A stretch of 43,710 bases of DNA from Nitrososphaerota archaeon (GTDB taxonomy: Archaea > Thermoproteota > Bathyarchaeia > Bathyarchaeales > Bathycorpusculaceae): contig JAISPR010000093.1 in NCBI GenBank assembly GCA_031274765.1, positions 1 through 43,710 on the forward strand, given 5' to 3'. A program made the translations under genes and the position numbers. Position 1 is the first letter of the stretch. Every line of letters starts with the position of its first letter. Shown in pieces: positions 24,737 through 43,710 of this stretch. Under the pieces are notes generated by a model that was not told the origin of the DNA, made no database searches, and was given only the letters and a program-made list of their open reading frames with translations.

Positions 24737-24847
24737 TTTTTGTTTGAATCAACCATTATTTACGTACAAAAGTGTTGGTGTTAAAGTGTTGTTAAAAATA
24801 ATTTCTGGTATGTTTGGGTGTGATTTTTGGTTGTTAATGGGCCCTTT

Positions 24848-25134
24848 AGACTGCGCAAAAATCAAAAAACAGCAGCACTAAACGCTACAAATAACGTATG
24901 TACCTTCACTATTGCTGTAGTAGTGGTTTGGTGAATTTTGGGCAGTGTGTCAAATAGAATAGTTTTTTACCCGTCAGATACTTTATGTGTTACCCATGAG
25001 TTAAGGGTAACTTTTCTTTTCAAACCTTGGAAAATTGGCCAAGCATATGGCGTTAATACGAACTTGATTTTGCGTCAAATTAACTATTCTAAATTGGCGC
25101 ACTGTCGAATTTTATTGGAGTTTTTGCGCAATCT
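24848..25134. mobile_element. Miniature inverted-repeat element, copy 1, interrupted
   Basis: The left end AGACTGCGCAAAAA (24848-24861) and right end TTTTTGCGCAATCT (25121-25134) are near-perfect inverted repeats. The left 92 bases align with the uninterrupted copy at 42714-42832 at clearly high identity, and the last about 21 bases match its right end. The middle is occupied by a second element (24940-25106). No transposase is encoded, so it would need one supplied elsewhere. Confidence 0.8.
24940..25106. mobile_element. Second miniature element inserted into copy 1, with 7-bp target duplication
   Basis: A 167-bp insertion flanked on both sides by GAATTTT (24933-24939 and 25107-25113). Ends are inverted repeats: GGGCAGTGTGTCAAATAGAA at the left and, on the other strand, GACAGTGCGCCAATTTAGAA at the right, both continuing into TAGTT. 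An internal GTTACCC-N8-GGGTAAC hairpin (about 24,990-25,011) is present. The empty target survives in the copy at 42,801-42,817 (GTGAATTTTATCGGAG). Confidence 0.8.
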
Positions 25135-25594
25135 GAATTTATGTTTTATGAGACGTTTATACGCAATGGGCTGTTTGTGATACGGGTAAAACGAGGTTCA
25201 ATGCCTTTTTAATGATGAAACGCTCAATTACTCTTAGCGATACCTAACACTTGGCATAACAAATATCTGAACTGTGTTATTGAGGCATTTTACAAAATTT
25301 TGATCCATTTTGATAATTTTTATTCCACTAGTCTTGTTTTGTTGTAAAACAGCCCCAAAATCATCATGACACGTTTCTTAATAACTATGCGCCAGTTTTA
25401 TTTCATATGTTTGTTGTGAAACGCTTGGTTTTTATGGTAAGTTAATGGTTAAAAATATTTAATCTAACCTGATTGGTTAGACAAAATTGTTATTCGTAAC
25501 TGGAAAATCAATTCGAAAAAAGTTGTTTTGGATTTGTGCTGTGAAAAACTTTTAGTTACTTGCGGTAGTGTCAAAAAATTGGATGTTGGGTAGG
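25135..25594. other. Intergenic region before the GT4 gene
   Basis: About 460 bases with no gene and no clear repeat. GGTTGGGTAGG-like purines precede the GT4 start. The AT-rich TTAAAAATATTTAATC (about 25,447-25,462) may serve as promoter. Confidence 0.45.
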
Positions 25595-42478: not shown

Positions 42479-42678
42479 GTTGAACTAAGTATGCGTTTTT
42501 CCTTTTAACTTTGAGGTTTTTTGTTAGATATATTATTTGTTGAGGTGGTTAAAAATCGATTTGTATTTTGACGAATTGAGTGGTTAATTGCATTTTTTTG
42601 TCTGTATTTTTATTATTTTTATGGAAGTCTGCCGGTGCTAACTTCTGGCAACTCACTGCCTGATAGTGATTGCATGCT
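42479..42678. other. Intergenic region upstream of the TrmB gene
   Basis: About 200 bases, T/G-rich, no gene. It holds the leftward promoter of the TrmB-type gene, not individually identified. Confidence 0.4.
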
Positions 42679-42706
42679 CAGTTTGCGTAAAATCTCCGAT
42701 AAAATT
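42679..42706. repeat. Orphan inverted copy of the miniature-element end
   Basis: On the minus strand this 28-base stretch reads AATTTTATCGGAGATTTTAC followed by GCAAACTG. It matches the right end of the adjacent element (42805-42832) at nearly every position, in opposite orientation. It is probably a remnant of an earlier insertion or a rearranged end. Confidence 0.65.
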
Positions 42707-42713
42707 GATAATG

Positions 42714-42832
42714 CAGACTGCGCAAAAAATCAAAAAACAATGGCACTAAACGTTGCAGATAGCGCATATCGCCTCATTTATTGCTGTATGTAGTGGTCTT
42801 GGTGAATTTTATCGGAGTTTTTGCGCAGTCTG
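42714..42832. mobile_element. Miniature inverted-repeat element, copy 2, intact
   Basis: A 119-bp element with perfect 15-bp terminal inverted repeats, CAGACTGCGCAAAAA and TTTTTGCGCAGTCTG, flanked on both sides by AATG (probable target duplication). It has no coding capacity. Its interior aligns with copy 1 at 24848-25134 and shows the uninterrupted GGTGAATTTTATCGGAG. Confidence 0.85.
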
Positions 42833-43058
42833 AATGTCCTAATTTAGGTTTGATGACACTTGACAATAAAAAACCTGTCAAGACCACAAATGACAAGTCA
42901 ACCCCTCAAACCGCCCCAAAGAAAAACCATGCTTAAAATCTGAATTTTGCAGATTTTTAGCGTACACAAAAGCGGCGTCAAAATTTCTTAAAATTTTTGT
43001 AAAAACAACATGTTATAGCAGACTAGTATAAATTTTACGTTGCATTATAACATTTATT
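42833..43058. other. Intergenic region before the transposase remnant
   Basis: About 225 bases, A/C-rich, no gene. It should contain the left end of the IS630-type element, but I could not define a terminal repeat or TA duplication because the right end is outside the window. Confidence 0.35.
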
Positions 43059-43710
43059 ATGACATACAGTAGAGATTTCCGAGAAGCAGCACTAGCCTAC
43101 AAACAAAAAGGCCACACCATAAAACAAACCTGCGAAACCTTCAACATAACAAACAAAACCTACCACAACTGGCTAACCCAAAAACAAAAAACAGGCAACC
43201 TAACACCCAAAAAACACGGTCCCCGCAAAAGAAAAATCGACCCCCAAAAACTAAAAACCTACACAGAACAACACCCCGACGCCTACCTCAAAGAAATCGC
43301 CCAACACTTCAACTGCAAACCCTCCTCAGCCTACAACGCCCTAGTCAAGCACAAATTAACCCGTAAAAAAAAGCATTCACCTACAGTGAAAAATCCCCCG
43401 AAAAACGACAAATCTACATAGAACTTCTAAACAAGATTCCGGAAGCAAACCGCGCCTACATTGACGAATGCGGCATAAAAAAAGACCCGGGTACGCGAAT
43501 ACGGGTATGCGCCGCGAGGAAAACGAGTCGAAGACACTAGCGGGGACGAAAATTTCACCGCCTAAATGTTATAGGGGGGTTATTTAGTGGGCGGGTGGTG
43601 GTGTCTATGTGTTATGAGTATTCAACTACGGGGTGGTTTTTGGGTGGTGGTTTGTGACTCAGTTTTTGTCTTGGGTGCGTGGGGGTTGGTTGTGTTTTTG
43701 GATAATGCGC
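43059..43710 (+). pseudogene. IS630-family transposase, frameshifted and truncated by the window edge
   Basis: The first frame (43059-43421, 120 residues) is the N-terminal helix-turn-helix region (MTYSRDFREAALAYKQKG, FNITNKTYHNWL, then a basic linker and second HTH). At the 8-A run 43365-43372 the coding sense moves to the -1 frame, giving FTYSEKSPEKRQIYIELLNK and YIDECGI, the first Asp of the DDE triad. Further frame changes occur near 43,490 (REYGYAPRGKRVED) and 43,545 (FHRLNVIGGLFSGR), and an in-frame stop lies near 43,650. VVFLDNA near the edge would hold the second Asp. The first shift could be programmed, but the later ones indicate decay. Confidence 0.85.

Follow-up and report, generated by a model that had tools for sequence, protein, structure and literature searches.

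Structure of the locus

Two copies of a short repeat, family A, lie in the window, which is the whole 43,710-nt stretch of DNA analysed here, from an archaeal MAG close to Ca. Bathycorpusculum (assembly G000, 2.50 Mb, 170 contigs). The first copy is split by an insertion of a second element, family B, and the second is unsplit (Table 1). A protein encoded in the window has relatives in termite-gut type archaeal MAGs (Ca. Bathycorpusculum and one MAG labelled Nitrososphaerota), and neither a tRNA nor a match reaching the Rfam threshold was found in the window.

Table 1 Positions of the nested elements, their target-site duplications and the unsplit paralogue in the window
Feature	Position	Strand	Remarks
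Family A MITE copy 1	24847..25135	+	holds 115 bp of A, the remainder being inserted B and B's target duplication; inverted-repeat ends TAGACTGCGCAAAAA / TTTTTGCGCAATCTG; reads TAGACTG...CAATCTG
B left target-site duplication GAATTTTG	24933..24940	+	
Family B MITE, 166 bp	24941..25106	+	ends GGCAGTGTGTCAAATAGAATAGTT / AACTATTCTAAATTGGCGCACTGTC
B right target-site duplication GAATTTTA	25107..25114	+	identical to unsplit A sequence
29-bp relic, right end of another A copy, inverted	42678..42706	-	86% match; immediately left of copy 2
Copy 2 left target-site duplication AATG	42710..42713	+	
Family A MITE copy 2	42714..42832	+	119 bp, intact; serves as a related empty site for B
Copy 2 right target-site duplication AATG	42833..42836	+	

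The initial annotation had described copy 1 as split by another element, and the split is real, the copy reaching one base further on each side than had been placed. The inserted element does carry inverted repeats of its own, long and imperfect (GGCAGTGTG...AATAGTT), and it is one base shorter than the 167 bp first assigned to it. Its target duplication, reported as a perfect 7-bp GAATTTT, is better read as 8 bp with one mismatch (GAATTTTG/GAATTTTA). In the B copies with perfect duplications, the base that a 7-bp reading makes the first of the element (C, C, G and T) is found again directly after the right 7-bp repeat, so the duplication must be 8 bp long, and across the family the best-fitting duplication is 8 bp, beginning directly at GGCAGTG. 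Because B lies within A and is flanked on both sides by duplicated A sequence, A was inserted first, in the order that had been proposed.

At the point of B's insertion, the unsplit sequence of copy 2 reads GAATTTTA. The two copies are about 82% identical across their left part; the inverted ends of copy 2, CAGACTGCGCAAAAA, are perfect over 15 bp, and the 4-bp duplication of copy 1 itself is not intact (flanks CCTT / AATT). Copy 2 had been taken for a preserved empty site. It does hold the unsplit sequence, but it stands at another site with its own AATG duplication and is therefore only a related empty site: a paralogous A element, not the pre-insertion state of the locus of copy 1. Beside copy 2 lies a 120-aa ORF (43059-43421, +) that matches HTH_Tnp_IS630 (N-terminal portion of IS630-type transposases) and that has relatives in termite-gut archaeal MAGs.

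Copy number and target duplications of families A and B

A genome search for both terminal repeats, proposed in the initial annotation, showed that neither segment is single-copy. Family A, with CAGACTGCGCAAAAA ends (about 15 bp, a perfect 15-bp terminal inverted repeat (TIR)), measures 107-119 bp and is present in at least 46 distinct full copies in G000; family B, with GGCAGTGTGYCAA ends (about 25 bp), measures about 166 bp and is present in at least 27 near-full copies, both counts being lower bounds obtained from searches and fetched stretches. Neither family has coding capacity, in agreement with the earlier remark that no transposase is present in either. Perfect 4-bp duplications surround 28 of the 41 A copies that have both flanks (shuffled flanks: mean 1.9, maximum 9), and 45 of 46 copies fall outside every ORF of 100 aa or longer. 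For B, a perfect 8-bp duplication is seen in 4 of 15 copies (shuffled-flank mean 0.27) and a duplication with at most one mismatch in 7 of 15 (shuffled-flank mean 0.54). Copy numbers of this order in a single assembly, together with the excess of A duplications over the expected 1.9, exclude chance. Being short, non-coding, multicopy and bounded by TIRs and by target duplications of fixed length, A and B are both MITEs. The proposal of two distinct non-autonomous families was thus borne out by the genome-wide copies and the duplication statistics, as well as by the candidate helpers in relatives described below.

Of the 46 A copies, 11 match another copy at 99% identity or more and 17 at 95% or more, which indicates that A moved recently. 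Nearest-neighbour identity in B falls from 96% to 66%, and judged by this measure the B copies are older on the whole than the A copies. Searches of viral contigs gave no hit to the pattern of either MITE. Two oppositely oriented B copies lie a few bases apart at G000:C44:22705-23026 (L033, L045).

Several G000 contigs start or end within A elements. Contig ends also fall about 117-123 bp inside A-ended elements in two other genomes (G009:C45, C117 and C73; G033:C108 and C109), the pattern that an assembly interrupted by a multicopy element would give.

IS1182 elements as candidate helpers of family A

A direct DNA search of 91 genomes of the host family with the MITEs returned chiefly other MITEs, so end patterns were used to find full elements in these genomes and in fetched stretches. 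This search by matching ends, also suggested at the outset, led to IS1182 elements with A ends and to an IS1-type transposase beside one B end. At G035:C166:9367-12868 (L219), CAGACTGCGCAAAAA stands at both ends of an element that has the target-site duplication (TSD) ATAT and contains pieces of an IS1182 transposase; the 436-aa ISAzo13-family transposase ORF that it also holds (NF033519, E 3e-153) suggests a further nested insertion. A second element with matching A ends, at G033:C3:25298-27133, has the TSD AGAT and an IS1182 remnant. Single A ends were found about 107 bp before a 225-aa ORF matching DUF772 and NF033551 IS1182 (E 2.3e-40; G012:C11:9876) and about 118 bp past a 389-aa ORF matching NF033551 (E 1.3e-77; G039:C146:2418). 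The two-ended IS1182-type elements with A ends are degenerate or interrupted. Intact IS1182 relatives in the genus (NF033551 E 8e-98) have ends related to those of A, CAGACTGTGTCAAAA or GAGACTGTGTGAAAA, and the flanks of the intact copies in G021 and G014 show no perfect 4-bp repeat. The A MITEs have the terminal inverted repeat alone in common with the IS1182 elements, and a search of G000, a 170-contig MAG, yielded no intact IS1182 transposase, only three remnants. At C78 and C142, an A end stands at the start and is followed by an ISH6-type element, which was rejected as the helper of A.

The ends and the 4-bp duplication of A are, at the level of sequence, consistent with those of the IS1182 elements of the genus. 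In sister genomes, A ends flank IS1182-family transposases, which largely answers the question of its helper.

IS1-type elements as candidate helpers of family B

A B-type right end, identical to the family B consensus at 29 of 31 bp, lies just past an IS1-type transposase in a degenerate copy at G035:C161. This transposase matches NF033558 with E 1.5e-14, under the curated cut-off, and it is the one case of an exact B end adjoining an IS1 transposase, the left end being missing. A 1,093-bp IS1-type element at G010:C22 has ends GGCAGTGTCCYAAT (GGCAGTGTCC) and a perfect 8-bp TSD, TTATCTTA; its IS1 match is weak (E 2.7e-4), with a score under the curated cut-off. IS1 relatives are also found within G000, at C6 and C28, with ends that are at best related to those of B. 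IS1 is thus a likely assignment for B, less firm than that of IS1182 for A.

The IS6, IS1595 and ISH6 families also show 8-bp duplications and ends that start with GG, and C142 carries an ISH6-type transposase, so that one of these families, rather than IS1, might have mobilized B through similar ends. We consider this improbable. No match to the IS6 transposase domain (DDE_Tnp_IS240, PF13610) was found in G000, and an IS6 helper was rejected on this ground; the ISH6 element at C142 has differing ends (CGTGTCTTACAATTGGC); and in a search over families other than IS1595, the sole transposase found adjoining the exact end of B is IS1-type. The IS1 relative, moreover, combines GGCAGTGTCC ends with an 8-bp TSD.

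Other nested and composite elements

Three further MITE families (C, D and E), each found repeatedly in the fetched loci, split other A copies in G000. One A copy is split by a 168-bp D element with TIR GTTACTACTCAGCA and an 8-bp duplication, GTAATGTG (L124, G000:C12:16694-16983), and another by a 140-bp E element with TIR GAACAGTTCGGCGATAA / TTATCGCTTAACTGTTC (L125, G000:C36:5577-5835); E recurs at 87-96% identity. Family C (107 bp), with ends CAGACTGTCCAAAA / GAGACTGTCTAAAA that are close to those of A, splits the A copy at C17 and has 55 matches among the fetched G000 loci, which overlap. Its copies (L123, L129, L131, L132, L134 and L135 in G000) usually have C or G runs in their flanks, and its ends resemble those of the genus IS1182 elements. 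With A copies split by several MITE families, nested insertion is common here, and the case in the window is one example.

At G009:C1:90333-91725 (L197), a 278-aa reading frame lies between two MITEs, each about 158 bp long and with A-type ends. The outermost flanks are both AAGT, as would be seen if the two MITEs had transposed jointly as one composite unit. Identical B-like ends at C49, C118 and C121 were initially read as those of an autonomous element; the one at C49 proved to be another MITE.

Proposed history of the locus

The ends, duplications, copy numbers and order of insertion reported above are all shown by the sequence data, as is the occurrence of identical or related ends on sister-genome elements of the IS1182 and IS1 types. 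Very probably, the locus records two insertions by unrelated non-autonomous elements, A through IS1182 and then B through IS1, both mobilized in trans. In the first step, a 119-bp A MITE would have been inserted by an IS1182-family transposase that recognizes CAGACTGCGCAAAAA, with duplication of 4 bp. In the second, a 166-bp B MITE would have entered A, mobilized by an IS1-family transposase that recognizes GGCAGTGTGYCAA... and duplicates 8 bp; such an IS1 helper would bear GGCAGTGTGCCAA ends on both sides. That the IS1182 and IS1 transposases actually mobilized the MITEs, and that the events occurred in this lineage, we infer.

Family A was recently active, although the assembly holds only IS1182 remnants. 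A rather unlikely reading is that a transposase supplied by other strains, or by a source beyond the chromosome, keeps A mobile, and that A copies offer other mini-elements sites where insertion does no harm.

It is very improbable that A and B serve the host as short intergenic repeats (REP-like elements, terminators or structured RNAs) and were spread by recombination instead of transposition. Strong hairpins are predicted for both (z -4.9 and -5.9), and A copies lie almost exclusively outside ORFs; the hairpins, however, are expected from the terminal inverted repeats, and the window gave no match at the Rfam threshold. An unsplit paralogue exists, the same ends occur on transposase-encoding elements, and the precise 4-bp and 8-bp duplications, far in excess of chance, already largely refute this view. 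Least credible of all is that assembly or recombination produced a chimera: the MAG is fragmented and several contigs end within A elements, but the junction is interior to a contig of 43.7 kb and looks like that of an insertion (GAATTTTR duplicated around an intact B), and equivalent nesting is found at other loci, one of them with its own perfect duplication.

Two successive insertions remain the preferred reading, and nested insertions of this kind yield the relative order of element activity. Together, at least five small mobile-element families are resolved in a lineage of uncultured archaea related to Ca. Bathycorpusculum, with helpers proposed for two of them. These elements also break the assembly, in which contigs start or end in A copies.

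Comparison with known systems

A 2013 survey described IS1182-derived, ISMac2-related MITEs of 160 and 169 bp in Methanosarcina acetivorans, the 160-bp one having 14 copies, 26-bp inverted repeats and 4-bp direct repeats (PMC3852290). Family A resembles them in its archaeal host, small size and IS1182 partner, and in the 4-bp repeats of the 160-bp MITE, but differs in host and sequence, in its length of 119 bp, its perfect TIR of about 15 bp and its copy number of at least 46. In contrast to the M. acetivorans MITEs, the IS1182 partner of A is located in sister genomes and not in the host assembly. Compared with the IS1182 family itself (NF033551), whose transposase class adjoins A ends and has 4-bp TSDs at two loci, A shares the ends only and has no transposase.

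Family B resembles the IS1 family (NF033558) in that one B end adjoins an IS1-type transposase of the zinc-ribbon kind, and in the 8-bp TSD, seen both in the relative and in B; it differs in having no gene, the IS1 matches score under the curated cut-off, and the exact match is at one end only. A 165-bp MITE of Haloquadratum walsbyi (ISHwa6 entry) has an IS1595 partner, 8-bp direct repeats and 25-bp inverted repeats (PMC3852290). Compared by description only, B and this MITE are both archaeal, of similar size and have 8-bp repeats as well as inverted repeats of about 25 bp, whereas the transposase family assigned to them differs.

Bathyarchaeia receive no mention in a 2024 review whose list of archaeal MITEs covers Sulfolobus, Halobacterium, Haloquadratum and others (PMC10969869); the abstracts of the literature found for Bathyarchaeia, transposon and termite together report nothing on these elements. 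The kind of element and its mechanism are already known in archaea, and the families and their host are new within the literature searched.
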